From the NCBI GenBank assembly GCA_947488865.1, contig CANLCB010000005.1, positions 1-46,464 of the forward strand: a stretch of DNA of 46,464 bases. Direction: 5' to 3'. Made by a program: the position numbers and the translations under genes. This document shows, piece after piece, positions 7,398 through 39,964 of the stretch. Source of the DNA: Deltaproteobacteria bacterium (lineage in GTDB: Bacteria; Bdellovibrionota_C; UBA2361; OMII01). Position 1 is the first letter of the stretch; every line of letters begins with the position of its first letter. The notes beneath the pieces were generated by a model. It worked only from the letters and a program-made list of their open reading frames with translations. It was not told the origin of the DNA and ran no database searches.

Positions 7398-8183
7398 ATG
7401 ACTGACAAAATACTCTCAGCCGTAGACCAGCTTCTTGCCCTAAGAGCCGCGGAAAATAACTCTGTGCCCCATCCCTCCAAGGCGCCTCATTTCGTTCACG
7501 CGACACTAGCAGCCTTATTTCCGCAACTCGCCCTCAGGTCGGCCACTACCCGAGAGAACCTGCTGGAACTGGTGACAACAGCGTCATCCGCTCTCCACGA
7601 GCTTAGCGTTCCTGTAATCCCCAACCGCTCAGAACTCGGAACATTACAAGACAAGTTCATAGACGAACTCCCCAAATTCTACTCCCTATTAAAAGAGGAT
7701 GCGGAAGCGCTTTTCCGAGGAGATCCGGCAGCCCGAAGCGTCGACGAAGTAATTGTATCGTATCCCGGCTTCATGGCTATTGCCGTCTATCGCCTGGCCC
7801 ATTGGCTTTATAAAAACCAGATAGCCATTGTGCCGCGAATGATCTCAGAGTACGCGCACATGCTCACGGGTGTTGACATACATCCCGGGGCGACGATCGG
7901 TCGCTCGTTCGTCATCGATCATGGAACCGGTATTGTTATTGGAGAAACAACCATCATCCATGACAACGTAAAAGTTTACCAAGGCGTAACACTAGGTGCC
8001 TTAAGCGTCGACAAATCGATGGCGGACATTAAACGTCATCCAACAATAGAGAGAGATTGTATCATTTACGCCAACGCGACAATTCTTGGAGGGGCGACAA
8101 CCATTGGGGCGGGAAGCGTTATTGGGGGCAACGTGTGGTTAACCGAAAGCGTGCCACCCGGCTCTCGAGTCTACCACCGATAA
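7398..8183 (+). CDS. cysE: Serine O-acetyltransferase CysE/EpsC type
   Basis: This is 261 residues from the ATG at 7398, preceded by AAGGA; the longer track start adds 32 residues with no homology-like content. The N-terminal helical domain (about 1-150, with SYPGFMAIAVYRLAHWLY) is followed by the left-handed beta-helix hexapeptide repeats: DIHPGATIGRSFVIDHGTGIVIGET, the GVTLGALS loop, RHPTIERDCIIYANATILGG and VIGGNVWLTESVPPGS. The catalytic histidines are visible in IHPGA and DHGTG. It transfers acetyl from acetyl-CoA to L-serine, the first step of cysteine synthesis. The last 45 bp overlap the end of the convergent methyltransferase gene. Confidence 0.93.
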   Translation: MTDKILSAVDQLLALRAAENNSVPHPSKAPHFVHATLAALFPQLALRSATTRENLLELVTTASSALHELSVPVIPNRSELGTLQDKFIDELPKFYSLLKEDAEALFRGDPAARSVDEVIVSYPGFMAIAVYRLAHWLYKNQIAIVPRMISEYAHMLTGVDIHPGATIGRSFVIDHGTGIVIGETTIIHDNVKVYQGVTLGALSVDKSMADIKRHPTIERDCIIYANATILGGATTIGAGSVIGGNVWLTESVPPGSRVYHR

Positions 8184-10847
8184 TTGGGCCGCGCCCTCTA
8201 AGCCCCACCGATGGATAAAGGAACTTTCCGCCCCCCCTTTCACAATAAGCGGACGCTGAAAAAACATCTTATCATGAATTTTTAGGAAACGATGTCGCAA
8301 CCATTCTCTAAGAGGAAGATCGAGCTCTTCCTCTAGTGCATGGCAAGAGCTCTCTAGGACTCCTTGCACAAGCTCATCAAGAGAACATTCAGAGACACGC
8401 AATCCCTTGAAATTGGCAGAATTCGACCACCAGTGATGCCCAAACACTCCCAAAATACACTCGGTCAAATGCACATACAGCAATCGGCTCTGAAGCTCAC
8501 GTTTGATTCCACGGTCCTCCGAACACATATCGCTAAGAGCAATCCAAACGTCTACCGGATGGAGCTGTGTTATCCAGCACAACGCTTCCAGGGGCAACAT
8601 TCCGGGGAGCGTCGACTCAGTTCTAGAGGCGGAGAGCCTTCCCCGCAACCCAGCGAGCACTAGATCTTTCACTCGCTGCCTGTCGGCTTTTGCCTCATGA
8701 GCGCAAGGCATCTCCAAAAGTTTGTTTCGCAAGGAACCTCTAGTCCCGCGCCAGAACTGCGACTCTGCGTCATTAAGCAATCGCTTGCTCCAAGAAACCG
8801 GAGGAGCGAGCCGCGATGAAATCTCCGTTCGCTCGTTATCACAAGCCTTCGCGGCATCGAGTGATTGAAGTTCAAGACGCCCCTCGATCATGAGAAGAAG
8901 CGCTTGAGCGCGCCAATAGTCAATCACATCGAGCTTAGCGCCTGGAGCGAAAGTGACTTCCGTTGGATCCCGCGACACGATCGATTTCTTCAGCTCCACC
9001 GCCTCTCGTACCAACTCGGCATCCAAGGCGCTTAAGTCGTGAGGGATGGGGAGTTGCCGCATTACCCCCTCAGGGAGTTGAGCCTTCCCTCCTACAGCTC
9101 GAACAGCTAGAGAACCCAATCGAGAATTTAGAAATGCTATTAAACGAATGTCTTCGACAAACACACCCGACGCCGACGCTCGGCCAAAGCTCCAACCAGC
9201 GTCCTTTTGTCGCAATCCGAGAGCGCCATTGGCAAACCATGTGTATGTCCATCCCGGGCGTTCAAACCACTCCTCAACGCCGATACCCGACTTAGGATCC
9301 GCTCGAAACCGACTCTCTCCGCGCCCCCAATCAATGAGGTATCGATTAAAACCGTACCAACGACCATAGCCTCCCCCTTTCGCGTGCACTTTGAAGCGCG
9401 CATGGTCAGGCGGAACCTCCCAATAGTGACGAACAAATTGCCGGTCATCGCTGGTCTGTAAGCCAACCACGACAGAGGCCATGTCACGAACCAGCCTCCG
9501 CTGATCCAGCAACCCTATCGGAAGCTGCCCTTGCAAAAGGAACGCTCTCGAAGAGCCCTTGGCAAGAACCTCCTCCTGCTTGATACAGATAGAGGAGCGT
9601 CCTTCGTCCGCGCTAAGTCGCGTATTCGAGAGAGCCTCGGCCTTCTTCTCGAAATCTTTCAAAGATGCGTATGAAAGGTGACGAAATGTATGTTGAGCAG
9701 AAGGAGGCTTGAGCACCGCCGATAAAAGCACTACACCTACGCCATCATGAAGTCCGGCAAGAGAACTGAAAGCTCTCCTCCCCAGCTCACAAATCACATC
9801 GAGAGATAAGAGCCTGTAAAGTCCCTCGAATCCCTGGCCGCCTGTTCGCAGAGGCTCATACCCCTTCAAGCGAAGCCATTTATCCACTGTAACAAGCCCT
9901 ACCGCGCCACCCGAATTAAGAAGTTCCACGCACCGCTGCATGAACGCGGCGCAAATATCGAGAGAGGTCGCGGGGTAATGCGTGTCGAGAAAATCACGCA
10001 CCTCTTTGGACAACTTTCGCCGTCCTATGTACGGGGGATTAGTAAGGACGCAGTCATACCTTCGCCGTAAAACCGGACACGCGTCATCACGATCGAGGGT
10101 ACCCAGCGTAGCGCCACACATCTGTATATTATGCAGAAGCGTTGCGACCACTGAGCGCTCAATCACACCATCGATCCGCCCTACCTCCAAGACTAGAATA
10201 GCTCTCGCTAATTCCACGGCACCCGAGTCAATGTCGCACCCAAAAAGATGAGACATGCTTTGCGCCGCAGAGCGACTTTCGTCAACTCGGTTAAAATACC
10301 GAAGAAGAGCGACCAGGAAATGCCCTGCCCCACAAGCTGGATCTAAAACGTCAACCTGCCCTTCACTTACCGCGCTCCTCGCGAGGGGCACGCAATGTTC
10401 ACATAGAAACGAAGTCATGTACTCTTCAGTGAATAACTGCGTCGCCGCGGCAACAGAATATGCCGCGGACCGCTCTTCGTCCTTGCGATTAATCGCCCAC
10501 GTGCTCAAATCCCGAGCCGCTTCATTCCAAAATTGATATGCCCATCCAATTAACAATGGGTCTCGACTACAAGCGTCGCTAACCTCATCAGAGACCCACA
10601 CAACAGAACACGCAGGCTGCTCTTCCTTTATCTCTTCGAGCATATCCGGAGCGACGACTCGAAAAACTCCTATCGCCTCCGAGCGTTGCATCGACAACCC
10701 CCTCGCGGCAGTGCGCAGAATGAGCTCAGAAAAATAGAAATTTCTGGATAGATGTTCAGGCTGCCCGTCGCCTGATGCGAGCCGTCGGGCGGCACGAGTC
10801 GCCTTACGCACCAGCCTTCTTAATTCCTCAAATTCCTCCCGAAGCAT
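8139..10847 (-). CDS. PglX/BrxX-like N6-adenine DNA methyltransferase (orphan)
   Basis: The protein is about 902 residues from the ATG at 10847 (AAGG upstream); the track start at 10868 is a TTG. Motifs are present in order: ATQLFTEEYMTSFL (like the FTP.wiv.f segment), SAM-binding motif I DVLDPACGAGHFLVALL, FGCDIDSGAVELARA, and catalytic motif IV TNPPYIGRRKLSKEV, followed by SLDICAAFMQRCVELLNSGGAVGLVTVDKWLRLKGYEPLR, which closely resembles PglX/Eco57I-family enzymes. The C-terminal half (about 450-900) is probably target recognition. I see no N-terminal PD-(D/E)XK nuclease motif, arguing against a self-contained type IIG enzyme. No brxA/B/C or pglZ genes are nearby, so it is either solitary or part of an unrecognised system. 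Confidence 0.8.
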   Translation of the reverse strand: MLREEFEELRRLVRKATRAARRLASGDGQPEHLSRNFYFSELILRTAARGLSMQRSEAIGVFRVVAPDMLEEIKEEQPACSVVWVSDEVSDACSRDPLLIGWAYQFWNEAARDLSTWAINRKDEERSAAYSVAAATQLFTEEYMTSFLCEHCVPLARSAVSEGQVDVLDPACGAGHFLVALLRYFNRVDESRSAAQSMSHLFGCDIDSGAVELARAILVLEVGRIDGVIERSVVATLLHNIQMCGATLGTLDRDDACPVLRRRYDCVLTNPPYIGRRKLSKEVRDFLDTHYPATSLDICAAFMQRCVELLNSGGAVGLVTVDKWLRLKGYEPLRTGGQGFEGLYRLLSLDVICELGRRAFSSLAGLHDGVGVVLLSAVLKPPSAQHTFRHLSYASLKDFEKKAEALSNTRLSADEGRSSICIKQEEVLAKGSSRAFLLQGQLPIGLLDQRRLVRDMASVVVGLQTSDDRQFVRHYWEVPPDHARFKVHAKGGGYGRWYGFNRYLIDWGRGESRFRADPKSGIGVEEWFERPGWTYTWFANGALGLRQKDAGWSFGRASASGVFVEDIRLIAFLNSRLGSLAVRAVGGKAQLPEGVMRQLPIPHDLSALDAELVREAVELKKSIVSRDPTEVTFAPGAKLDVIDYWRAQALLLMIEGRLELQSLDAAKACDNERTEISSRLAPPVSWSKRLLNDAESQFWRGTRGSLRNKLLEMPCAHEAKADRQRVKDLVLAGLRGRLSASRTESTLPGMLPLEALCWITQLHPVDVWIALSDMCSEDRGIKRELQSRLLYVHLTECILGVFGHHWWSNSANFKGLRVSECSLDELVQGVLESSCHALEEELDLPLREWLRHRFLKIHDKMFFQRPLIVKGGAESSFIHRWGLEGAAQLSVVDSRAGWHAFG

Positions 10848-11069
10848 ATGGATTGGTACCTTAAGCAATCAGAACTACATATCTAGAATTACAAACATCG
10901 AACAGCCCACAAATTCGAATATCCCCAAGCCTTTGCACCGCTCCTCCGGAAATTGAATTCAGACCGCTCTTCAGTTTTTGACGCCCCCGGTCGCCCCCCA
11001 CGCTAGCTAGACCCCTTGAATCATTAAACATGTGTACTTCTGAGACCTTCAGGGAGATAGGCTCATAGT

Positions 11070-12525: not shown

Positions 12526-14055
12526 CTACAACGAGCAGTCTGGAGAAGTAAGAGATCCTTGCTGAGACCGGAAATAATCAGCCCGAACAAACAACGCGAA
12601 GTCCTCATCTTTGGAACCGGCCGAGAAAATCTCACACCAATCAGGCGAAAGAAGAAGAAGAGAAACGAACGGACTACCCTGCCGCCACATGATCGTGCCG
12701 GGATTTACTTTAGAAATGAAATCAGACCACTGAGCTCTTCCCGAAAAACTCGCGCGATACATCTGCCATATCTCGTCCGGATTTACATTAGTGCGCCCAT
12801 CAATCGCGACCTTTTGAAGAGGGTTGCCATCTTTGTCACTAAATCGATACATCAAATATCCCCCTGCCCCAAACTCGTTGAGAATGGGCATCGGAAGATG
12901 CTTGTCTACTATGAAATCAACGGCTCGTTGCGGGACCATGCTTACATGAAGAGGTATAGCCCGTATGCGCTGAATGTTGATGACTGACACGCACGCCATA
13001 AAAAATACAATCGTCATGCCGGTCTTTGACTGAAGGCTCATGAAATTAGCCCTAGCCAAAAGTAGTCCCTCGGCGAAATTGTCGTGAACGCTGGTTCGAT
13101 GAGCCGCTCCGCTAATCCGCCACCACGCGGAGAAGAGCATCACCCATACAATCGCGGCAAACGGAATAAATTTAACAGCGGTGAACCCGGCTAAAAGCAT
13201 CCCCGCCCCCAGAATTCCTCGAGCCAGCGGCGGAAGCGCTCGCGTTGTATACGACACCACCAAAACCAAGAAGACTAAAAGTAACACGAACACCGCGGAG
13301 AATTGCAGAATAGTCGCGGGCTGAAATTCAGCGATGAGCTGATATTTAAGAGGATGGCCACCTTTCTCAAAGAACGTGAGCCACTCTCCTCCAAAATAAG
13401 GAGTCCACAGGGTTCCAACGAAAAACGCGGTGGCGCTAAGAACAGCTCGCCGAAACGAAACTTCAGATTTGCTGTTCTGCAAACTCCACAATCCAATCGC
13501 GACGAGACCAAGAGCTGCGGTCAGGTGAGTGTTAGCCCAGGCACATCCCAGCAAAGAGAGCGCCAGAAGTCGTTTTTTGGATATCCCCTTGTCCGCTATC
13601 TCGTCAGCGACAAAAATCGCTAGAGCGAAAAAGATCCACACAAAAACTTGGGGGCGAAGAGTGAAATTGTTGTAACACGCCACCGCGGCATAGAGACCAA
13701 AGAGCGCCCCGATAAAGTTATCGCGCGCGAGGCGGCCACACACGTACTGTAAGCACCCCGTAAGTATGACGCCCAAAAACAACTGAGCGTAAGCTAAGCC
13801 CGTCGCTCCCCATGCGTTGTCGATCGCGGCGAATAAGACCTCAACACTCCAGGAGTACGCCCTCCAGAGCTTCTCATCAGAAAACATATTCCAATAATCA
13901 ACCCTAGGAACCGCATGATGAGAGATAATCCATCGCCCAACGGTGATGTGCCACCATAAGTCTGGGTCGGCGATCGGAAGTGAGATGTACGAACCAACCA
14001 CAACCGCCACAAACAGCCACAACAATAATTGCGTGAGTTTAGAGTCTCTAATCAT
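12526..14055 (-). CDS. Polytopic membrane protein, GT-C glycosyltransferase-like
   Basis: This 509-residue protein has about ten or eleven membrane segments. Near the N-terminus, just after helix one, is DPDLWWHITVGRWIISHHAVPRVDYW, a motif shared by a group of uncharacterised GT-C-like membrane proteins in which the acidic DPD loop lies at the extracytoplasmic face. It continues with W..YSWSVEVLFA, and ends with a soluble domain of about 130 residues (LPMPILNEFGAGGYLMYRFSD, VAIDGRTNVNPDEIWQMY). Probably transfers a sugar from a lipid-linked donor, but the catalytic assignment is inference. It stands alone between purC and the small exported genes. Confidence 0.6.
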   Translation of the reverse strand: MIRDSKLTQLLLWLFVAVVVGSYISLPIADPDLWWHITVGRWIISHHAVPRVDYWNMFSDEKLWRAYSWSVEVLFAAIDNAWGATGLAYAQLFLGVILTGCLQYVCGRLARDNFIGALFGLYAAVACYNNFTLRPQVFVWIFFALAIFVADEIADKGISKKRLLALSLLGCAWANTHLTAALGLVAIGLWSLQNSKSEVSFRRAVLSATAFFVGTLWTPYFGGEWLTFFEKGGHPLKYQLIAEFQPATILQFSAVFVLLLVFLVLVVSYTTRALPPLARGILGAGMLLAGFTAVKFIPFAAIVWVMLFSAWWRISGAAHRTSVHDNFAEGLLLARANFMSLQSKTGMTIVFFMACVSVINIQRIRAIPLHVSMVPQRAVDFIVDKHLPMPILNEFGAGGYLMYRFSDKDGNPLQKVAIDGRTNVNPDEIWQMYRASFSGRAQWSDFISKVNPGTIMWRQGSPFVSLLLLSPDWCEIFSAGSKDEDFALFVRADYFRSQQGSLTSPDCSL

Positions 14056-15301: not shown

Positions 15302-16471
15302 CTAACGCCTCGGTCTATCGAAATGAAACGCGACGATATTCGACTCAATAGCGCTCCAAACCTGATTACATGAGGCAAATGAACCTGACGCGTTTTGTAA
15401 AGAACGCGCCGAAAGAAGTAAAGAACGCGCCGCTGTCCGATGGGCCTTAAGATCCAGCGACACCTCGGCATACGCCATGAGAGCAATCGCCTGATTATTT
15501 AACAACGCGGCCTCAAGCGTTGGATTATCACCAGCACGAAGATTGGCGCGGGCGGACTTGAAGGAAGCAAGCGCGCACAAGAGGTCCCCTCCTTCGAGCG
15601 TAGAAGCGGCGAGCGCCTGTGAAAGGTGATAGGTTCCGGACATCCAAACAGGTAACGCTCTGTGAGCGTTCGAACTCCAACGAGTTCGCAGCGCCGCGAC
15701 GCTTCGAACGGCGCGGTCAAATTCGATATCTTCACGCGAAGAACGCACTATTTCGGAGAACTGCCCAATCGGCCCAAGCATTCCAGTTACAAATTCCGCG
15801 GTAGTCGAATTGGCTCCAGAAGAAACTCCCACCCACGGAACTCCCACGATCAAGAAGACATCCTGAATTTTGCGGCGGTTCAAGAGCTGCTGTCCTACAC
15901 TCCCCTGAGGCAACCGAGAGAGAGAAAAAGGCTCAGGGACTCGCATGGAAAGATTAAGCCAGCGCTCTCCTCCCCACACAAGGGCTCCAGCATTCTGTTG
16001 AGACATTAAAAATTCGCGGGCCTGCTCGGCCGAGCTGACTACCTTCTCTTGAGTAACTATCTGAGTAGCCCCTCCTGGGCCGTATGCCTTGCGGAGCTTG
16101 TCGCGAATAATAACAGTTTCACTGCCTAGTGGGTCGTCTTTCATCCGAGCGACAACAAGAGCTCCCGGCGAAACGCCCATATTCGAATACTGAAGGACAG
16201 CTCCCGAAAGCGCGGCGAGCGCGGCAATTCCGATGATGACCTTCGGAAGTCGAACGGAACTGATAATGAGCCTTGACAGACCGAACAGGACAACAGGTAA
16301 AACGACGAGTTGAGCCAAAATTCGCGCCTGCGAACCACCCCCACAAACAACAGCGAGAATAGAGCCTACGGCACAGGTAGCGTAGGTCATTATAAGAGGA
16401 TTGGACGCAAAACGAGTTCGAGAGAACATGGCGACTAAACTTACCACCTCACAGCGAGGGAAGCGAGGCAT
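15302..16471 (-). CDS. Membrane protein with helical C-terminal domain, unknown function
   Basis: The protein is up to 389 residues. I keep the ATG at 16471, which has GGAGGA about ten bases upstream; an ATG at 16429 is a reasonable alternative. Three hydrophobic helices lie near the N-terminus (TYATCAVGSILAVV, LAQLVVLPVVLFGLS, IIGIAALAALSGAV), followed by a periplasmic alpha/beta region resembling a ligand-binding or receptor-like fold (VIIRDKLRKAYGP, EQAREFLMSQQNAGALVWG) and a helical, TPR-like C-terminus (ALLNNQAIALMAYAEVSLDLKAHRTAARSLL). A 21-base tandem repeat in the last 150 bp encodes repeated ARSL residues. No recognised family. Immediately upstream of purC. Confidence 0.6.
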   Translation of the reverse strand: MPRFPRCEVVSLVAMFSRTRFASNPLIMTYATCAVGSILAVVCGGGSQARILAQLVVLPVVLFGLSRLIISSVRLPKVIIGIAALAALSGAVLQYSNMGVSPGALVVARMKDDPLGSETVIIRDKLRKAYGPGGATQIVTQEKVVSSAEQAREFLMSQQNAGALVWGGERWLNLSMRVPEPFSLSRLPQGSVGQQLLNRRKIQDVFLIVGVPWVGVSSGANSTTAEFVTGMLGPIGQFSEIVRSSREDIEFDRAVRSVAALRTRWSSNAHRALPVWMSGTYHLSQALAASTLEGGDLLCALASFKSARANLRAGDNPTLEAALLNNQAIALMAYAEVSLDLKAHRTAARSLLLSARSLQNASGSFASCNQVWSAIESNIVAFHFDRPRR

Positions 16472-17737: not shown

Positions 17738-18691
17738 ATGAAAGTTCTGTTCTTCGGCACACCCGATTTTTCTGTTCCAACACTTGAGGCGCTCATCCAT
17801 ATGCCCGGTGTTGAGGTGGGCGCTGCATTGACCCAACCTGATCGCCCCGCGGGACGAGGGGGGAAAATCGCGATGTCGCCGATCAAGCAACTAGCGCTCT
17901 CGCGTGATATTCCAGTCTTTCAGCCTGTGTCGCTTCGCAAAGAGTTCAGCGGACTCTCTCAAACTCTCCAGGCATACGGGCCGTTCGACATCGGTATCGT
18001 CATCGCGTTCGGACAAATATTACCCAAAGAAGTACTTAACTTCCCGAAGCATGGATGCGTCAACGTCCACGCCTCTATTCTTCCTCGATGGAGAGGAGCA
18101 GCGCCCATACAACGAGCGATTCAAGCGGGCGATTCTGAGACAGGCGTATGCTTAATGCGCATGGACGAAGGGCTCGACACAGGAGCCGTGTTCTCCTGCG
18201 CGAAAACACCTATCACTTCTGGCGATACCGGAAGCTCGCTCCATGACACGCTCGCGAAACTAGGAGCAGAAACCCTTGCGCGAGATTTGAGTGCCATTAT
18301 CGATGGAACTCTTCAAGCGATTCCCCAACCCTCTGAGGGCGTCACATACGCTTCCAAGATAACGACTGGAGAGTGTCGGATCGATTGGAGTAGCGACGCC
18401 CACCAGATTGCGCTCAACATTAGAGCCTTCTCGCCCTTTCCTGGGTGCTTCACGACATGGCGAGGGAAACGACTTAAAGTCCTCTTCGCTCAAGACTCCC
18501 GAAGGCCATCCGCTAGCTCAGCGACTCCAGGCGAGGTTATTTACGCCCAAGGAGAGCGCGTTGAGATCGCCTGCGGACATGGAACGTCCCTCTCTGTAAC
18601 CGACCTACAACTTGAGGGTAAAAAGCGAATGGGAACGGCTGAGTTTCTTCGAGGGAACGTACTCGCGACTGGAGACCACTTCAATACTTAA
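17738..18691 (+). CDS. fmt: Methionyl-tRNA formyltransferase
   Basis: This 317-residue protein begins MKVLFFGTPDFSVPTLEAL. It has a Rossmann-like N-terminal formyltransferase domain with the signature CVNVHASILPRWRGAAPIQRAI (Asn, His and the SLLP-type loop) and DEGLDTGAV, then a C-terminal OB-like domain (about 210-317, ISPFPGCFTTWRGKRLK type). It formylates Met-tRNAfMet with 10-formyl-THF. Cotranscribed with def. The last four bases overlap the end of the convergent Cas4-like gene. Confidence 0.95.
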   Translation: MKVLFFGTPDFSVPTLEALIHMPGVEVGAALTQPDRPAGRGGKIAMSPIKQLALSRDIPVFQPVSLRKEFSGLSQTLQAYGPFDIGIVIAFGQILPKEVLNFPKHGCVNVHASILPRWRGAAPIQRAIQAGDSETGVCLMRMDEGLDTGAVFSCAKTPITSGDTGSSLHDTLAKLGAETLARDLSAIIDGTLQAIPQPSEGVTYASKITTGECRIDWSSDAHQIALNIRAFSPFPGCFTTWRGKRLKVLFAQDSRRPSASSATPGEVIYAQGERVEIACGHGTSLSVTDLQLEGKKRMGTAEFLRGNVLATGDHFNT

Positions 18692-19536
18692 CCGGGGGTA
18701 CCTGGCGGGCGCTCATCAACACGCGCCGAACATCTGTGCCGCACATCACATTTCCTACATTTACTCGGATGAGGTTGAGGTTTTGCCGGACTACCATTCA
18801 AAATACGGCGCATATCCGAAAGAAGAGAGGTCACCCACTGTTGCTTGCGCTCCTGATTCTCAATTTTAACGCGACGACAATTCTCTCCTAAGAGCAAATA
18901 GCCATGAGGAGGACGCACTCCCTCAAACTCCTCCACGAGACGCATATACACGAGAAGCTGAGCCACATACCGATCTCGCAACTTCTTCGCCAAAGGCTTC
19001 CTCTCGACAGGAAGAATAAAATCACCCTCTCGAAGAATCGCGTCCGGCTTACCGGCCAGCCCCTGCTTTACTGAGATGTATTCCCGAGACGGCAATATGG
19101 AACTCCCCTCAATCGCCACCGCGATCTCAGATAACGCGAATCCAGAATCTCGGTGTCGACGACGCGCGGCTTTTAAAAAAGATCTGATTACAAGAAGGGA
19201 CGCTGCCATTAGAACTACTAACTGAAGACCATGACTTTGAACGGACACAAAAAAGATATCATCCAATCTCTCCTTGGGGGACTGAATGAGGAGAAAGAAA
19301 ACTCCCGCCGAGCAAAGGAGCACAGCTAGGTACCGAATCCATTTCGTAAGAAGCAGCGATTCCTCAAAAAGGGTAGACCACGATTTATGGAGCTGTTTTC
19401 CAAGCTCCACTGAGGACTCCATTTTGGTATCCTCCCTATCAATCCATTTCAGCTTCCATGAGAGTGGACAGACTGAAAAAGCCCCCACCTCCCCCGCTGA
19501 TATAATGTGTTGCCCCTCTGGGCCTCTTGTTGCCAT
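18688..19536 (-). CDS. Cas4/RecB-like Fe-S nuclease with two inserted transmembrane helices
   Basis: This 282-residue protein has the Cas4-family landmarks in order: ISAGEVGAFSVCPLSWKLKWI with Cys23, a GKQLH motif (H50), GKPDAIL (D165), LPVERK (E178-x-K180), the QLLVY segment (Q193xxxY197) and a C-terminal CRKCDVRHRC (Cys260, 263, 269). Four Cys suit a [4Fe-4S] cluster; D/ExK/Q is the PD-(D/E)XK catalytic set. Unusually, two hydrophobic helices (about 67-85 and 103-121) sit between the H50 motif and the catalytic strands, joined by a short loop. So the nuclease core is probably held at the inner face of the cytoplasmic membrane. The ATG has AGGA six bases upstream. No cas or add genes are adjacent. 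Confidence 0.7.
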   Translation of the reverse strand: MATRGPEGQHIISAGEVGAFSVCPLSWKLKWIDREDTKMESSVELGKQLHKSWSTLFEESLLLTKWIRYLAVLLCSAGVFFLLIQSPKERLDDIFFVSVQSHGLQLVVLMAASLLVIRSFLKAARRRHRDSGFALSEIAVAIEGSSILPSREYISVKQGLAGKPDAILREGDFILPVERKPLAKKLRDRYVAQLLVYMRLVEEFEGVRPPHGYLLLGENCRRVKIENQERKQQWVTSLLSDMRRILNGSPAKPQPHPSKCRKCDVRHRCSARVDERPPGTPG

Positions 19537-19608: not shown

Positions 19609-20136
19609 CTATCGAGGCCCTATGACGATATCCTTAGCTGCACGATAGCACTTGCGCGCCTTACGTTGGATGAGCGTAAAGAGTTCCTTGCAGACATCCT
19701 GCAAAGCCTCTTTGTCAGACCGCCCTAACAACACCTGCGGAGGAGAACTCTCCTCTGGATACTCAACGATCGGTTCGGCAAGGTGCACCGAACTAATGTG
19801 TGGCATGTGAGCCGTCTCGAGAGCGAATTGCACCTCCGGCGCCTGGTGATGGGTTAGTCGCCAAAAAGCGTAACGCCCGCACGCGCTCGTAAAGGTGCAT
19901 TGTACGTGGAACCTGCCAGACTCAGCGTCGAATCCAACCTTCACCCTAAAATCATGGATATCTTCGAGAAGAAAGTTCGCCTCGAAAGATTTAATCCAGC
20001 TACGACGAGCTCGATAAGCGGATACCTCATCAAGGTAAATTCCCTCCAAAACCAAGCGTTCAGAGTCGTACCAGAGCCCCAAACTCACCGTTGGAAAGTG
20101 AGAACCCGTTGAATGTTCCAATCCAGTTTGCTGCAT
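19609..20136 (-). CDS. Conserved-looking cytoplasmic protein, unknown
   Basis: This is 175 residues from the ATG at 20136. The track start at 20160 is a TTG directly after the T-run of a terminator, so I prefer the ATG, though neither has a clear ribosome-binding site. It has alternating strand patterns (TVSLGLWYDSERLVLEGIYLDEV, FRVKVGFDAESGRFHVQCTF), an aromatic stretch (GRYAFWRLTHHQ) and a C-terminal basic helix (LIQRKARKCYRAAKDIV). No signal or membrane helix. I do not recognise the family. It sits immediately downstream of the structured RNA element at 20159-20366, which may control it or be independent. Confidence 0.55.
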   Translation of the reverse strand: MQQTGLEHSTGSHFPTVSLGLWYDSERLVLEGIYLDEVSAYRARRSWIKSFEANFLLEDIHDFRVKVGFDAESGRFHVQCTFTSACGRYAFWRLTHHQAPEVQFALETAHMPHISSVHLAEPIVEYPEESSPPQVLLGRSDKEALQDVCKELFTLIQRKARKCYRAAKDIVIGPR

Positions 20137-20158
20137 AGAGTCGAATCGCACGTTGAAC

Positions 20159-20192
20159 AAAAAAAGAGGTCCCCCTTTTTAGGGGGGGACCT
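20159..20192 (-). terminator. Rho-independent terminator of the structured RNA
   Basis: On the minus strand AGGTCCCCC (20192-20184) pairs with GGGGGACCT (20175-20167), with an eight-base CCTAAAAA loop, and is followed within two bases by a run of Ts (20165-20159). It is a textbook intrinsic terminator for transcription towards lower coordinates. It stands about 25 bp before the ATG of the 175-residue protein, so it either ends a separate RNA or acts as an attenuator. Confidence 0.75.
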
Positions 20193-20693: not shown

Positions 20694-21383
20694 ATGAACA
20701 GAGGCAATCACAGGCACTCTAACCGAGGCGGACGCGGACGCGGTCGTTCAAACCGAGGTCGCGGCGGAGATAGACACTCACGTCGTCACCCACGACAGAG
20801 CGCCGAGAGCGGCAATCAAAGAGAGCGTATCTCTATCGAAAGTGGCGATCTGGTTCTCATCGATCAATTCATGCTCGCCAACGGGCAGTTTATCGATAAA
20901 ATGGCCGCAGTAATCGACGAAGAGGCGGAGATCAAGAATCAAGTTATTCGCGAGTACGGCGGAAAAGTAATCTCGGTAACGCGAGGAACCTACAGGATCG
21001 AGCGCGATCCATTCGCCTACACGATCGTAGTTCACCCTGAAGGCGACGATCTCACAGCCCCAGAGGCGGTTAAAGAAGCTAGCGAGCTCCTCGGTGAAGT
21101 AAATATCGACACCCGATGCCTCGCCATGCTCGACCGTGAGCTTCTCGATGATAACGCTCTCCTTGAGCGATATCAGCAGCTCTGGTTCAGCGGACAGGAC
21201 AAGACGGCCCGAGATCTTCTCCGTGATAACGGTGGAGCGGTTCGTTATGGATTCCGTCGCGATGGCGATGAATTGGGCGTTTACCAAGTTCCCGGCGAGG
21301 ATGTTATCTGCCTCTGGCCGAAGAACATGGAAGCCATGGCGAGCGCTGAAGAGTCTCTCGATCAGGCCGCTCAGGAAGCTTAA
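20694..21383 (+). CDS. RG-rich (RGG-box-like) protein of unknown function
   Basis: In this 229-residue protein the first 36 residues are almost entirely Arg, Gly, Asn, His and Ser (GGRGRGRSNRGRGG), like eukaryotic RGG boxes and the basic tails of some bacterial RNA-binding proteins. Residues about 45-229 form an acidic soluble domain: GDLVLIDQFMLANGQFI, NQVIREYGGKVISVTRGTYRI, CLAMLDRELLDDNALLERYQQLWF, ARDLLRDNGGAVRYGFRRDGDELGVYQV and ICLWP. I do not recognise the domain. The tail suggests nucleic-acid binding (inference). The start is the first ATG, with AGGA eleven bases upstream. A strong terminator follows about 50 bp after the stop, so it is probably monocistronic. Confidence 0.65.
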   Translation: MNRGNHRHSNRGGRGRGRSNRGRGGDRHSRRHPRQSAESGNQRERISIESGDLVLIDQFMLANGQFIDKMAAVIDEEAEIKNQVIREYGGKVISVTRGTYRIERDPFAYTIVVHPEGDDLTAPEAVKEASELLGEVNIDTRCLAMLDRELLDDNALLERYQQLWFSGQDKTARDLLRDNGGAVRYGFRRDGDELGVYQVPGEDVICLWPKNMEAMASAEESLDQAAQEA

Positions 21384-34240: not shown

Positions 34241-37200
34241 ATGAGGAGAATACCCGGCAACGTTCTAGCTCTGGTAGGGCTCGTTCTCGGGCTATCGGTC
34301 GGACTTGGAGTTGTCCTTCTAAAAAAATATCTCGTTCAGGAAATCGTCCAGGCTCTTGAAGAAGAGTTGGTGATTGCGTGTCCGAACTGCAAACTGAACT
34401 ACGAGACCTTCACTATCAATTTCCTCTCTCTTTCTGGTCAAGCAACCAACATAACGATGGAAGAAGAGGGAGTGCCTCGAATCTCCTTCCCTGAGATCTC
34501 AGCCACGTTTAGCATACAGGAAATCCTAGCCCAGAAGGTGTACCTCGAAACGTTAGTGTTGAGTGATGGACAGGTCGATGGAGTCGGCCCCGACTCGGTG
34601 ATGTTTCGATTTATAGACCAACTCACGAAACCGCTTCCACCGGAGCAACAAAACAAACCGCGCTGGCGAGCAATCCTTAACACCCTTGAAATAAAAAATG
34701 CTTCTATCAGGGAATCTTTTGGCGGTAGCGAACTAACAGGCGCGGATGTCGGGCTCTTTGTGAAACGAATCGGAGAACACTTCGTGCTTCTTCCGAGCAT
34801 TGAAGATCTCAGATATCGCTCGTTTCTCAATCCAGAAAAAACCGAGGTCAAAGAGCTGCCTTTAGGTCGAGTATCTGGCTCAGTGGTAATCGAAGAAGGT
34901 CGAACCCTCTTCAATTCCCTACGACTAGGCAGAGACGATTCTGTCTTTGAGATGAAAGCGTCCGCCGACTCCCTCAATAATGACGCGCTCTCAGGATCCG
35001 CCGCCTACCAACTCAATACTCAATACATCGGGCTACCTGACTGGCTGATTGGTTTGGTCGCTGGAACGGGCACCGTACAAGGAAGCCTTGGAAGTCCTAT
35101 CATTACTGGCTCCCTGGAAAACGCGTCACAAACTCCTATTACGTTGGCTTTTCCCAACGCTTCACCCGTGACCCTCTCATCGCTTCACGGCGAAATGACC
35201 GTAGATGTGAATCATGGAGACCCTGTAGTTACCCTGAAAAACATCGCCGGTTCTGGAGACAAGTCCTCTCTGATCAGCACCAAACCCCTCGTGTTCTCTG
35301 ACGAGGGACTTCGAGCAGGTTTCGAGATCGCGCTTCCGCAATTTTCGTATGGGCCATTCTCGATCGCTAACGGAAAAGCTCGTCTTTCCATCAAACCTTC
35401 GGGCAACGACACGATTACCGAGATTCAGGTAGACGCCGGTGACTTAATCGTTCAAGGAACCTCACTTGGACCATCCAAACTCTCGTTAACCATCAAGCCA
35501 GATACCGTCGATGTGGTCGCGGATTCAAACGACCCTCGGCTTGGGTCGTTTCACTGGGACGGCTCGATTCTTCTGAATCGACCGGAGCCATTCTTAAAGA
35601 ACGGCAAGCTGGTACTGACAAACTATCAATACCCTCTCTCAATGCCGGTAGATCCAGCTCGCCTAAGCCCAGTTCAAGTATCAACAACAATGCCACTTTC
35701 TGGCCCCCTCGATCTGGGCAGACTATCTGGTGAAGGGCTCACCACCATAGCGTTTCCAAGCTTGCGAGGAGGCATCCCCCTAAGCGGCAAGACATCGCTG
35801 AAGGATGGAATTCTCAACGTAGCGCTCCCCACCTCTGCGTATAGAGGTTCAGTTAATCTCAAGCTTGATCTGACAAAAACCTTTGAGGGAAAACTTTCGG
35901 TCCAGTTACCGCGCGTACCCCTCTCACAATTTTTGGAAAACGCGGACTGTGGGTTGATCGACGCCGCCCTCGATTACTCGTTTACTCTCTCATCACCGTT
36001 GGGCGGGTCCGGAAATCTCTCGCTTCATGACTTCCACGTCGGCTGCGCCCCTTATGTCATGCAGGTCCCGAGGAACTCCGTACTTCCAATCACAGATGGC
36101 GCGTTGAGATTTAAAAACATGACGTTGAGCGGTGGCAACACCGCGCTGGAGCTTAATGGAAGCTTCGGAATCGGGCCGGGGGCGGATATCTCTTTAACCG
36201 GAGGGCTTCACCTGAGCTCTCTTCTGCCCCTTCTCCCCTCCGTTGACAATCTACAAGGCCTGCTTTCAACCAAGATGTCTCTCAAGGGGCCGCTCTCAAA
36301 CCTCACCTACAGCGGTACCGCCGAGCTATCCAATGGTGAGATTGCGGTCGAATCACCTGACATTGGCGCGCATGACGTTAATGGCCGATTTGTTCTTGAG
36401 GGTAACGCCATACGAGTTGACAACCTGAAAGGTTCCCTTAATAACGGAACATTCTCCATTAACGGCACCCTTCTTCCATTTAATCTTCCAGACTCAAAAC
36501 TAACGGCCAACCTTAAAGAGGTTACGGTCGAACCTATTCAGGACGCCTCTATCACCTTCTCTGGCGACCTCGCTTTAGGCATGAGCCAACAGAAGCACCA
36601 GACCCTCTCTGGAAACATCACCATAGACTTCGCGGAGATCTCCAAAGATTTCGATCTCAACCGAATTCTTATGCAGACCATTAAGGGCTACTTCCTGCCC
36701 ACTCGCATACAACCTCAGGTTAGCTCAAAGCCGGTGGCGGTTGATCTTGATGTCTCCTTCAAGGCTCCACGAAACATCTTCGTCATCACGCCTTTCTTTA
36801 GCGCGGAGCTCAACACCAATATTCACGCGGGAGGCACAACTACAGATCCAGCCCTAACAGGGTCGATGCAGCTACTCAGTGGCTGGGTGGGATTGAAAGG
36901 AAATAGGTTCGACGTAACCGCTGGCAGCTTAACCTTTAAACCTGGCTCGCTTACCCCTCACCTAGAAATCGCGAGCGAGGGAGTGTTGAGAGCTCCAAGC
37001 GGCGAAAGCATCCTCGTTCTTCTCGAGGCGTCCGGACCATTAACAGCTCCGCGCATTACGCTCTCCTCAGATCGAGGACTATCCCAGGAAGAACTACTGC
37101 TACTCATCACCTCTTCTCGCTCACTGACCGGCAGAACCCTGGCGAATCAGGTCGGAACCCAATTCGGTGATGATAAACGATTCTTCCTATCACCAGACTC

Positions 37201-39964
37201 CTTCAGTAGCTTCGAGGCCTTTTTTTCGAACCTTACCAAGATCGACACACTCTCGTTTGAACCAACATACAACCAATATACTGGTCTTGTAGAACCAGCC
37301 ATCGTCGCACGAAAAAACCTCACTCCACGCTTTGCGCTGGTCGGAAACAGCCTCTTCAGTAGCGTGAGTAACTCAAAGGCTGGGGTGGTGTACAACCTCA
37401 CTCCCTCTCTCGATATTAACGGATTCATCCAATCGGTCAGCACGCAACAGAATCCAATCGCGAGCTCTGACCTTACCTACACGATTTTAAGCGAACAGCC
37501 TTCACTCGTTGACATCACCGTGACTGGACTAGCTGCTCTTGATGAGCAAGATATTTTAATCGCGGCGCGTCTCGGCAGAGACTCCCGAATCCTCCCGGAT
37601 AAGGAAGGTCTTTCAATGATACGTCGAGATATTGTGGCGTCTCTTAACGACCAAGGGTTCTTAGCGGCAGACGCCACCCTGTCATGCGCGAAGGCTGCTC
37701 GTTATTGCCAGGAGTTACTCATCAACGTCTCTGAGGGCCCACGATTCACTATTAGCTCCGTCGTGCTAGAGGGAAGCACTCTTCCAGCTCAAATTGATCA
37801 CCTAGCTTCTCACATCACATCTATAGGCAGCTACGCGACAGGAAAGCTTCTCGCGGAAACTGAGCGACAACTCGTTCTCGCTCTTCGCAATGAGGGATAC
37901 ATCTCCGCCAGAGTCATTCCCTCGTACCGCCGCACCCAATCACCAGACTCCGTGGCGCTCGTTATCGCGAGCGATATCCGAGAACCAATCTCCTTTGTAT
38001 TCAAGGGAAACACGGTCTTCACCTCCGAGCAATTTCTTGACTCCATCGACCTCTTCAAGCGGAAGCGTCCGTTCGGTAACAATACCATCAAGCTACTGAT
38101 GGATAACATTGAGCATATGTATCAAGCGGCGGGATACCTCTTCGCGCAAGTGACGTTCACCGAAGATCGGTCAAACCTTGAGCGCCTTGTGTACGTCATC
38201 TCAATCGCCGAAGAGACCCAAACTCAAGTTAAGAGTCTCACTATTCGAGGCAACGACTCAGTCCCTCTCCGTAAGATAAAAGACGATATGCGAACCATGG
38301 GCTTTGCCGATCAGCTACCGCTGTTGCACCCGAACTTCGCGGTGCCAACGCAGCTCGACACCTTGAAAGGCATATTACTCACTGTCTTCCAACAAGAAGG
38401 CTATCCAGAGGTAAGCGTAGATTACACTATTAGCCCAGTAAAGGATGAGGACGCTCTTGAGATTGTGTTCACGGTGACAGAAGGCCCTGCCGTGCAAGCA
38501 TCGCACATTACGCTCTCAAAATTTCCTGATGGCATCAAAGCGCCGGAGCCTCCAACCATGCCCGCTTCACTGCCTAGTGTGAATCAATACGTTGAACAGT
38601 TGCTCGACACCTTGCAAAGTGAAGGATACCTTTTTCCCAGCATTACAGCCGAACCCGCTCTTGACTCATCAGGCATTCTACTCACAATATCAACGGGACC
38701 TCGCTCACATATCGGCTCGGTAACCTTTGAGGGGATCTCGGAAATCGAAGAGCCTGTCGCGCGAAAGTACTGCGCGCTTAAGAGCGGAAATCCTTATCGC
38801 CTTGAGGACGTCAACGCCACCAAGCGGGAGCTTCTCCGCTCAGGACTCTTCTCTAGAGTTGAGGTCGTAGCGACCGATGGCAAGCTTGCATCCCCTCAAG
38901 AGGACATCACGGTGCGCATTGTAGAACGTCCTCTACAAACCCTCGAAGTCGGAACAGGCGCCAACTCGGAGTTCGGAGTTCACGTATTCGGAGAAGCTGT
39001 AGACAAATCTCTCTTTTCTGACGGACGTAGCCTCTCCACTCGTATCGACACCTATTTTGATCAAGCGCAGGTCAATCCCACTGGCTCAAGCGCTATCAGT
39101 CAAGGTTTCGCGAATCTGCGCTATCTCGATCCGTTCTTTATGGACTCCGACTACTCACTGACCGAGGAAGTACGATTCCAAAGACAAGAACTCACCACCC
39201 AAGAATTTAACCTCGATCGACTCACGTTCGCCTCATACCTCTTCCGACAGTTTGACGCGGGGGTCACCGTGACAGGAGGTCACTCCCTCACGTTTGACAA
39301 CCTTCAGGATGTGACACCCGGGGCGATCATCACTCCTCTTGACGAAGGCCATGTTCGACTGAGCTTCCTCTCAGGAACCATTAAGCTTGATCGACGAAAC
39401 GATCCTCTCAGCCCACAACAGGGATACACCTTTACCCTTGAGCCCCGTCTATCCGCTCAAGAGATTGGCTCTGAGGCTAATTTCGGAGCGATCCTCGCCC
39501 GTTCTACCGGAATAGTTCCCCTTGATATGCTCTCTCCCCGCTTATCGCTCGGCCTCGGTCTTTCCGGAGGCATCGGGCAACCGTGGGGCGACACTGTCGA
39601 GATTCCGATTACTCAAAGATTCTACCTCGGAGGTCGTACCACGGTGCGTGGCTTTAAAGAGAATTCTCTCGGACCTAAGGGCAGTGACGGGGCGGTCATT
39701 GGAGGTGACACGCTTGTAAACGAAAAGAATCAGCTTCAATACCTTTTAACAGACTCCATCAGCTCCCATGTGTTCATGGATATCGGAACCGTCTACCTCC
39801 GACACCAAAGCATGAGACTCTCTGACCTTCGCTACAGTACCGGCGTCGGGTTCCAATACCTATCCCCAATTGGCCCAATCGGGTTCGACGTCGGACATCC
39901 ACTGGATCGGCAAGAAGGCGAAGATAACTTTCGTTTTCATTTCTCCGTGGGAAGCGCGTTTTAA
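34241..39964 (+). CDS. TamB-like (DUF490) protein fused to TamA/BamA-like Omp85
   Basis: This is a single 1907-residue ORF. Residues about 5-30 form an uncleaved-looking membrane anchor (GNVLALVGLVLGLSVGLGVVLLKK). About 35-820 is repetitive beta-rich AsmA/TamB-type material. About 820-1085 is DUF490-like, with GTTTDPALTGSMQLLSGWVGLKGNRFDVTAGSLTF and LSQEELLLLITS. From about 1088 there are roughly six POTRA-like units (e.g. ISSVVLEGSTLP, ISFVFKGNTVFTSEQFLDSIDLF, VKSLTIRGNDSVPLRKI, IGSVTFEGISEIEEPV). About 1567-1907 is an Omp85 barrel with the loop-6 VRGF motif and the expected C-terminal Phe. TamB moves phospholipids and helps outer-membrane assembly with TamA, normally as two proteins. Here one chain would be anchored in the inner membrane and end in the outer membrane. 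ATG at 34241; weak ribosome-binding site. Confidence 0.9.
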   Translation: MRRIPGNVLALVGLVLGLSVGLGVVLLKKYLVQEIVQALEEELVIACPNCKLNYETFTINFLSLSGQATNITMEEEGVPRISFPEISATFSIQEILAQKVYLETLVLSDGQVDGVGPDSVMFRFIDQLTKPLPPEQQNKPRWRAILNTLEIKNASIRESFGGSELTGADVGLFVKRIGEHFVLLPSIEDLRYRSFLNPEKTEVKELPLGRVSGSVVIEEGRTLFNSLRLGRDDSVFEMKASADSLNNDALSGSAAYQLNTQYIGLPDWLIGLVAGTGTVQGSLGSPIITGSLENASQTPITLAFPNASPVTLSSLHGEMTVDVNHGDPVVTLKNIAGSGDKSSLISTKPLVFSDEGLRAGFEIALPQFSYGPFSIANGKARLSIKPSGNDTITEIQVDAGDLIVQGTSLGPSKLSLTIKPDTVDVVADSNDPRLGSFHWDGSILLNRPEPFLKNGKLVLTNYQYPLSMPVDPARLSPVQVSTTMPLSGPLDLGRLSGEGLTTIAFPSLRGGIPLSGKTSLKDGILNVALPTSAYRGSVNLKLDLTKTFEGKLSVQLPRVPLSQFLENADCGLIDAALDYSFTLSSPLGGSGNLSLHDFHVGCAPYVMQVPRNSVLPITDGALRFKNMTLSGGNTALELNGSFGIGPGADISLTGGLHLSSLLPLLPSVDNLQGLLSTKMSLKGPLSNLTYSGTAELSNGEIAVESPDIGAHDVNGRFVLEGNAIRVDNLKGSLNNGTFSINGTLLPFNLPDSKLTANLKEVTVEPIQDASITFSGDLALGMSQQKHQTLSGNITIDFAEISKDFDLNRILMQTIKGYFLPTRIQPQVSSKPVAVDLDVSFKAPRNIFVITPFFSAELNTNIHAGGTTTDPALTGSMQLLSGWVGLKGNRFDVTAGSLTFKPGSLTPHLEIASEGVLRAPSGESILVLLEASGPLTAPRITLSSDRGLSQEELLLLITSSRSLTGRTLANQVGTQFGDDKRFFLSPDSFSSFEAFFSNLTKIDTLSFEPTYNQYTGLVEPAIVARKNLTPRFALVGNSLFSSVSNSKAGVVYNLTPSLDINGFIQSVSTQQNPIASSDLTYTILSEQPSLVDITVTGLAALDEQDILIAARLGRDSRILPDKEGLSMIRRDIVASLNDQGFLAADATLSCAKAARYCQELLINVSEGPRFTISSVVLEGSTLPAQIDHLASHITSIGSYATGKLLAETERQLVLALRNEGYISARVIPSYRRTQSPDSVALVIASDIREPISFVFKGNTVFTSEQFLDSIDLFKRKRPFGNNTIKLLMDNIEHMYQAAGYLFAQVTFTEDRSNLERLVYVISIAEETQTQVKSLTIRGNDSVPLRKIKDDMRTMGFADQLPLLHPNFAVPTQLDTLKGILLTVFQQEGYPEVSVDYTISPVKDEDALEIVFTVTEGPAVQASHITLSKFPDGIKAPEPPTMPASLPSVNQYVEQLLDTLQSEGYLFPSITAEPALDSSGILLTISTGPRSHIGSVTFEGISEIEEPVARKYCALKSGNPYRLEDVNATKRELLRSGLFSRVEVVATDGKLASPQEDITVRIVERPLQTLEVGTGANSEFGVHVFGEAVDKSLFSDGRSLSTRIDTYFDQAQVNPTGSSAISQGFANLRYLDPFFMDSDYSLTEEVRFQRQELTTQEFNLDRLTFASYLFRQFDAGVTVTGGHSLTFDNLQDVTPGAIITPLDEGHVRLSFLSGTIKLDRRNDPLSPQQGYTFTLEPRLSAQEIGSEANFGAILARSTGIVPLDMLSPRLSLGLGLSGGIGQPWGDTVEIPITQRFYLGGRTTVRGFKENSLGPKGSDGAVIGGDTLVNEKNQLQYLLTDSISSHVFMDIGTVYLRHQSMRLSDLRYSTGVGFQYLSPIGPIGFDVGHPLDRQEGEDNFRFHFSVGSAF

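Follow-up and report, generated by a model that had tools for sequence, protein, structure and literature searches.

The window, by which we mean the whole 46,464-nucleotide stretch of DNA analysed here, carries at 18688..19536 on the reverse strand an intact open reading frame (ATG at 19536, stop at 18688) for a stand-alone protein of 282 residues, without a helicase domain of the AddB or RecB type. The gene lies tail-to-tail with fmt, with which it overlaps by 4 nt; def and a pair of uncharacterised genes are its other neighbours, and neither cas nor addAB nor phage genes adjoin it, as the earlier note had already remarked. Profile searches place the product in the Cas4-like nucleases: it matches Pfam PDDEXK_1 at 1.4e-12 (residues 12-269 against profile positions 2-246 of 247) and Pfam Cas_Cas4 at 5.1e-12, scores 46.6 against PF01930 (curated cut-off 22.7) and reaches 67 bits with NCBIfam TIGR00372 'cas4' (cut-off 65), while the nearest solved sequence is that of the type I-C Cas4 8d3l (E 4.6e-6), with the N-terminal Cys/Trp/His part aligned too. 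Using the list of RecB-type features in PMC4176176, the alignment and residue table assign Cys23, W27 and H50 to an N-terminal Cas4 part (residues 1-63; 19348..19536, reverse strand), and profiles, alignment, AlphaFold and Foldseek delimit a nuclease core (residues 132-270; 18727..19143, reverse strand) with P164-D165, E178-R-K180, Q193-x3-Y197 and Cys260/263/269. Cys23, H50, D165, E178/K180, Q193, Y197 and the three C-terminal cysteines align with all homologues in the window's order, where D165, E178/K180 and Q193/Y197 are present in the window protein and in all complete copies, and the four Cas4-type cysteines, one N-terminal (Cys23) and three C-terminal (Cys260, Cys263, Cys269), are invariant in every complete copy. 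The gene is kept in 12/12 genomes of the genus, where nonsynonymous changes are much scarcer than synonymous ones (pN 0.18, pS 0.85). By motif and profile the window protein is thus classed as Cas4/PDDEXK_1-type, and by context as a solo-Cas4, in agreement with the earlier proposal of a Cas4-type Fe-S nuclease with all its named landmarks.

Between the N-terminal part and the core lie two hydrophobic helices. The first covers residues 66-84 (19285..19341, reverse strand; Kyte-Doolittle (KD) peak 2.12) and forms the outer part of an AlphaFold helix at 41-84; the second covers about 94-118 (19183..19257, reverse strand; KD 1.66 at 94-112), falls within an AlphaFold helix at 91-130 and is followed by the basic stretch KAARRRHR. 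They are joined by residues 85-91 (19264..19284, reverse strand; AlphaFold loop 85-90), a loop predicted to lie outside the membrane and the position at which the gene is broken in split relatives. The earlier note had thus rightly pointed to two hydrophobic helices, although hydropathy shifts them slightly from its 67-85 and 103-121. Of 55 relatives, 47 have two such segments above a strict threshold, whereas ordinary soluble Cas4 proteins recovered by the same searches and analysed alike peak at KD 0.8-1.1; the spacing from Cys1 to the catalytic Asp is 142 residues in the window protein against 56-67 in these controls. An ordinary Cas4 has no hydrophobic helix between its His and Asp, where the window protein has two (between H50 and D165). 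The relatives carry 3-9 Lys/Arg in the 30 flanking residues, the outer flanks being basic and the short connecting loops holding few, a pattern of membrane-length helices with basic flanks that marks a membrane protein as far as sequence can tell. Because the outer flanks are basic and the connecting loops are not, the simplest predicted topology is a hairpin in the membrane whose two ends face the cytosol.

The AlphaFold model, computed from a 42-row alignment (pLDDT 91.8, pTM 0.87), shows a closed nuclease core from which helices of 44 and 40 residues project, joined by the short loop at 85-90. The core thus closes in the presence of the hairpin, a point that the earlier note had wished to see checked in such a model; the prospect it raised of buried core helices is not borne out, as the helices project and coincide with the tail of the N-half and the anchor of the C-half in split relatives. 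Foldseek matches the model to Dna2, Cas4, AdnAB and ACE1, with Dna2 5ean on top (3e-8) and Cas4 8d3l reaching a TM-score of 0.69 by target, N-terminal part included.

In about half of the phylum, in four further lineages and on Bacillus subtilis plasmids, a pair of adjacent genes takes the place of this one. The phylum copies divide into 18 split and 22 fused; G027, which looks frameshifted, and G044, which spans a contig break, were left unclassified and stand outside this count. The search matches in other families of the order are two pieces in different frames. The N-half (~85-120 residues) holds an FxVCPxAW motif, Cys1, the His and a C-terminal hydrophobic tail, its soluble part aligning with residues 1-63 of the window protein, and the C-half (about 170-235 residues) begins with a hydrophobic anchor and continues with GRPDA, ERK, QLLVY and three cysteines (Cys2-4). 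Together the halves tile single profiles, PDDEXK_1 at positions 1-43 and 122-246 and the Cas4 profile PDLC00943 at 2-48 and 62-178 and at 1-44 and 61-179. With dN/dS of 0.05-0.19 for N-halves and 0.04-0.13 for C-halves, both halves are, by this measure, under purifying selection.

Beyond the phylum, two genes are the sole form in every lineage examined. In a second, large phylum, perhaps Chloroflexota to judge by its size and by what is published on solo-Cas4, the N-half adjoins the C-half in 34 of 39 genomes and lies ~0.7-0.9 kb upstream of it on the same strand in 2 more; in none are the two fused. The pair is also found in G355, G142 and G150/G286, and B. subtilis plasmids carry it as well; on NRS6116_2, one of these, the N-half is annotated 'hypothetical protein' (WP_144625283.1) and the C-half 'Dna2/Cas4 domain-containing protein' (WP_144625286.1). 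One B. subtilis plasmid row (L167:1309-5682) reads DinG-like helicase, small gene, N-half, C-half, hfq-like gene and thermonuclease-family lipoprotein. A further candidate relative, G001:C111 (L087), was set aside as a different protein, RNase_H_2 plus PDDEXK_1.

Within the window's phylum the gene is near-universal, single-copy and vertically inherited, being present in 41 of 46 genomes and in 19 of the 20 good ones; genomes without it are mostly incomplete. A tree of 55 rows requires six changes between split and fused, five of them forced by starred branches; the outgroup is split throughout, and the window's genus forms one fused clade (100/100) amid split rows. This is most simply read as an ancestral split form with several fusions, for which the evidence is moderate because the root relies on an outgroup whose rows are long-branched. 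The window's genus is probably a fused derivative, joined through the outside loop. The earlier description of two helices inserted in the core therefore holds as to the hairpin itself, which is present, but the single-protein state of the window's genus is probably secondary, two genes being the commonest arrangement.

The gene neighbourhood is constant across the genus and order. Upstream of the nuclease and likewise on the reverse strand, a gene at 19609..20160 is separated from its start by 72 nt; it is conserved in this place at 19 loci of the order, whether the nuclease there is split or fused, and carries the motif CxRYAFWRxTxxQAxEaQ. It has no family above cut-off (RWD at E 0.035 is below that of Pfam), and its AlphaFold model (pLDDT 82.8), a small alpha-beta fold, has no confident fold match in the PDB; lacking both, it was dropped as a functional clue. 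A divergent neighbour (20694..21383, forward strand), likewise conserved across the order, combines an Arg/Gly-rich N-terminus with a conserved domain of ~150 residues and has no family match. Housekeeping genes (rseP, nadK-recN, fmt) flank the nuclease in most genomes; outside the window's order the pair follows rseP or precedes nadK and recN. A CRISPR association was rejected, as Cas1 occurs in 9 of the 46 phylum genomes against 41 for this gene, none was found in the window's genome and no cas genes lie nearby; a phage or viral origin was rejected as well, the C-half query having no match in phage records and a viral-contig scan returning no relative.

Elsewhere in the window, two reverse-strand genes beside purC (12526-14055 and 15302-16471) are conserved in the genus and have no Pfam or NCBIfam match at the thresholds used; the first holds many hydrophobic stretches. 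For an Eco57I/PglX-like DNA methyltransferase of 909 residues (8139-10868, reverse strand), four further genomes of the genus have homologues at the corresponding position. At 34241-39964 (forward strand), a 1907-residue open reading frame unites in one polypeptide a TamB domain (residues 728-1081, E 1e-27), POTRA domains and a TamA/BamA-like barrel, the Omp85/BamA match (E 8e-42) extending to residue 1907.

We favour, as probable though well short of assured, a model where the protein is a membrane-tethered solo-Cas4, ancestrally of two subunits stapled in trans by an Fe-S cluster and acting on DNA at the membrane's inner face. Inserted where the N-terminal Cys/His part gives way to the catalytic sheet, the hairpin would hold the nuclease against the cytoplasmic membrane on its inner side. 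In its ancestral and commonest form the enzyme would consist of two subunits from adjacent, often translationally coupled genes, the N-half bringing Cys1, the His and one membrane helix, and the C-half one helix, the PD...ExK...QxxxY residues and Cys2-4. Each half would insert its membrane helix, the helices would pair, and an Fe-S cluster with one ligand from the N-half (Cys1) and three from the C-half would clamp the two into one nuclease; cluster binding would close the RecB-like core on the cytosolic side, and the PD-ExK site would cut DNA there. Such an enzyme would most likely trim DNA, probably as single strands, at its point of contact with the membrane, and a fusion by way of the outside loop would have joined its two genes in the window's genus. 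Nuclease activity, location and topology in the membrane and formation of the cluster in trans are here inferred from what is known of the family of iron-staple nucleases.

As to the setting, DNA uptake is a first guess and remains conjecture. The gene lies 63 nt upstream of comEC at L066 (G022), and at L128 (G355) an operon-like row runs MBL hydrolase, ComEA-like HHH_3 gene, N-half and C-half, the ComEA-like gene overlapping the N-half by 4 nt. Physical linkage to comEC or comEA is confined to these two lineages, and no comEC adjacency appears among the matches listed for the second phylum; these links are suggestive of a role in DNA entry. Co-occurrence with ComEC was abandoned as proof of such a role, since ComEC is near-universal in both phyla (41/46 and 224/251 genomes). 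The fuller proposal is tentative and less likely than not: two single-pass proteins, each holding part of the Fe-S ligands and of the active site, would make up a widespread two-subunit nuclease at the membrane, turned on when the cluster is inserted in trans and then processing incoming DNA.

The enzyme might instead be a membrane-tethered housekeeping exonuclease of repair or replication, similar to Dna2 or AddB and acting on single-stranded stretches of chromosomal DNA near the membrane, a possibility to which we give limited credence. A near-universal, single-copy, vertically inherited gene in constant housekeeping neighbourhoods would suit such a role, as would Dna2 as top fold match and the order N-C-nadK-x-recN in the second phylum; yet that recN linkage is restricted to two related families, most genomes show no adjacent helicase partner, and a strict membrane anchor is left unexplained. 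Of the roles in defence, uptake or repair that the earlier note suggested for a nuclease working at the membrane, uptake finds two suggestive contexts, repair one and defence no specific support.

Not every member of the family retains its active site. All of C-W-H-D-E-K-Q-Y-C-C-C is kept without variation by the window's order, by G031 and by the second copy of G032, and the catalytic set is intact in the other phyla too. Thirteen other lineages of the class have Arg in place of H50 wherever that position is visible (12 lineages) and have mostly lost Q193/Y197, and six of them lack K180 (G030, G032a, G039, G043, G044 and G045). These eroded lineages keep their visible cysteines and the PD (PY in G044), and the four cysteines and W27 are retained in every complete copy. 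G032 holds both kinds, an eroded fused copy and a split, catalytically intact one (L085:9562-10298). Eroded members are probably poor or dead nucleases that retain the cluster site, because mutation of the equivalent residues abolishes Cas4 activity (PMC4176176), although some that keep PD...DxK may still cut. With the active site eroded in 13 lineages, catalysis therefore cannot be the function of every member.

This erosion raises the alternative that the nuclease fold serves as scaffold for an Fe-S protein of the membrane, one conserved to bind or tether DNA or to sense redox state and not to cut. The universal cysteines and W27 set beside the loss of H50 in 12 lineages and of K180 in 6 would accord with it, as would continued constraint on the eroded pair G034/G037 (pN 0.105 against pS 0.86). 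It is nonetheless unlikely for the family as a whole: the intact, invariant catalytic set of the window's order, G031 and the other phyla calls for catalysis to explain it, and several eroded lineages with PD...DxK may have kept their activity.

A membrane-localised defence nuclease degrading incoming phage or plasmid DNA appears improbable, for although the Cas4/RecB fold, a weak similarity to DruK of Druantia, one locus beside a DNA methylase and the place next to a DinG-like helicase on B. subtilis plasmids would be in keeping with it, the window's phylum offers no defence-island context, PADLOC profiles give matches only to Cas4 and DruK, inheritance is vertical with constant gene order, and phage records hold no copy.

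That the split is an artefact, whether of assembly frameshifts or of a programmed ribosomal frameshift yielding one protein, can be given next to no credence as a general cause: many loci do come from draft metagenome assemblies, ATGA overlaps resemble slippage sites and single draft loci such as G027 may be so explained, but the split recurs in single-contig genomes and a finished B. subtilis plasmid, N-halves stop at the same loop in nearly all loci (window residue 84-98, mostly 87), and purifying selection acts on both halves. A programmed frameshift in particular is dismissed because the junctions include overlaps (ATGA or GTGA in about half), small gaps, stops (at least one together with a gap between the open reading frames at several loci, three consecutive in one) and all three relative reading frames.

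If the two-subunit, membrane-tethered nuclease is real, then the bacterial C-halves, annotated widely as 'Dna2/Cas4 domain-containing protein', are each one part of an enzyme whose partner is filed as a hypothetical protein, and a biochemical assay of the C-half alone would miss half of it. The family would offer a natural test of the 'iron staple' idea, as the staple would join two separate proteins, and the B. subtilis plasmid pair makes the enzyme testable in a laboratory organism. It also bears on the question of what solo-Cas4 proteins do, and its eroded lineages raise that of what job the fold performs when unable to cut.

The closest described group is solo-Cas4 itself (PF01930/DUF83, TIGR00372; PMC5704561), with which the window protein shares RecB motifs, a 1+3 arrangement of cysteines, non-CRISPR loci and vertical inheritance; it differs by a membrane hairpin of ~80 residues between His and Asp and by its usual encoding in two genes. 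The Cas4 census of Hudaiberdiev et al. (2017; PMC5704561) reports monophyletic solo-Cas4 in many Chloroflexi, and its text mentions no transmembrane, membrane-bound or split form; nor did a search for split or membrane Cas4 in the literature within reach, which took in few subscription papers, return one. As to the earlier statement that membrane-tethered relatives of Cas4 were unfamiliar, relatives are widespread and in part catalogued as solo-Cas4, although no mention of the membrane and split forms themselves came to light. The type I-C CAS-Cas4 (PDB 8d3l) is the best solved-sequence match and a global fold match that includes the N-terminal part, but it is a soluble single chain of 218 residues without membrane helices that works with Cas1-Cas2. 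CAS-Cas4 is encoded with cas1/cas2, whereas the window gene has no cas genes nearby, and a compact soluble Cas4 chain has ~171-221 residues against 282 with the hairpin insert here, or two chains. Dna2, AddB and AdnAB share the fold, and their cysteines are likewise arranged for a cluster to staple the N- and C-terminal ends ('iron staple'), yet their nuclease domains reside in large soluble helicase-nucleases and the staple joins the ends of one chain rather than two proteins. The Argonaute-associated ACE1 family (PDB 9iab, 9iac) is likewise a Cas4 fold outside CRISPR, but its description holds no membrane hairpin and its gene context is another. TP1, the nucleocapsid protein of TTV1 (PMC4625639), sets a precedent for a Cas4 derivative retained for a non-cutting job, although it is a viral structural protein from an unrelated context. 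Set against these systems, the predicted membrane hairpin and the two-gene form depart from the described Cas4 family.
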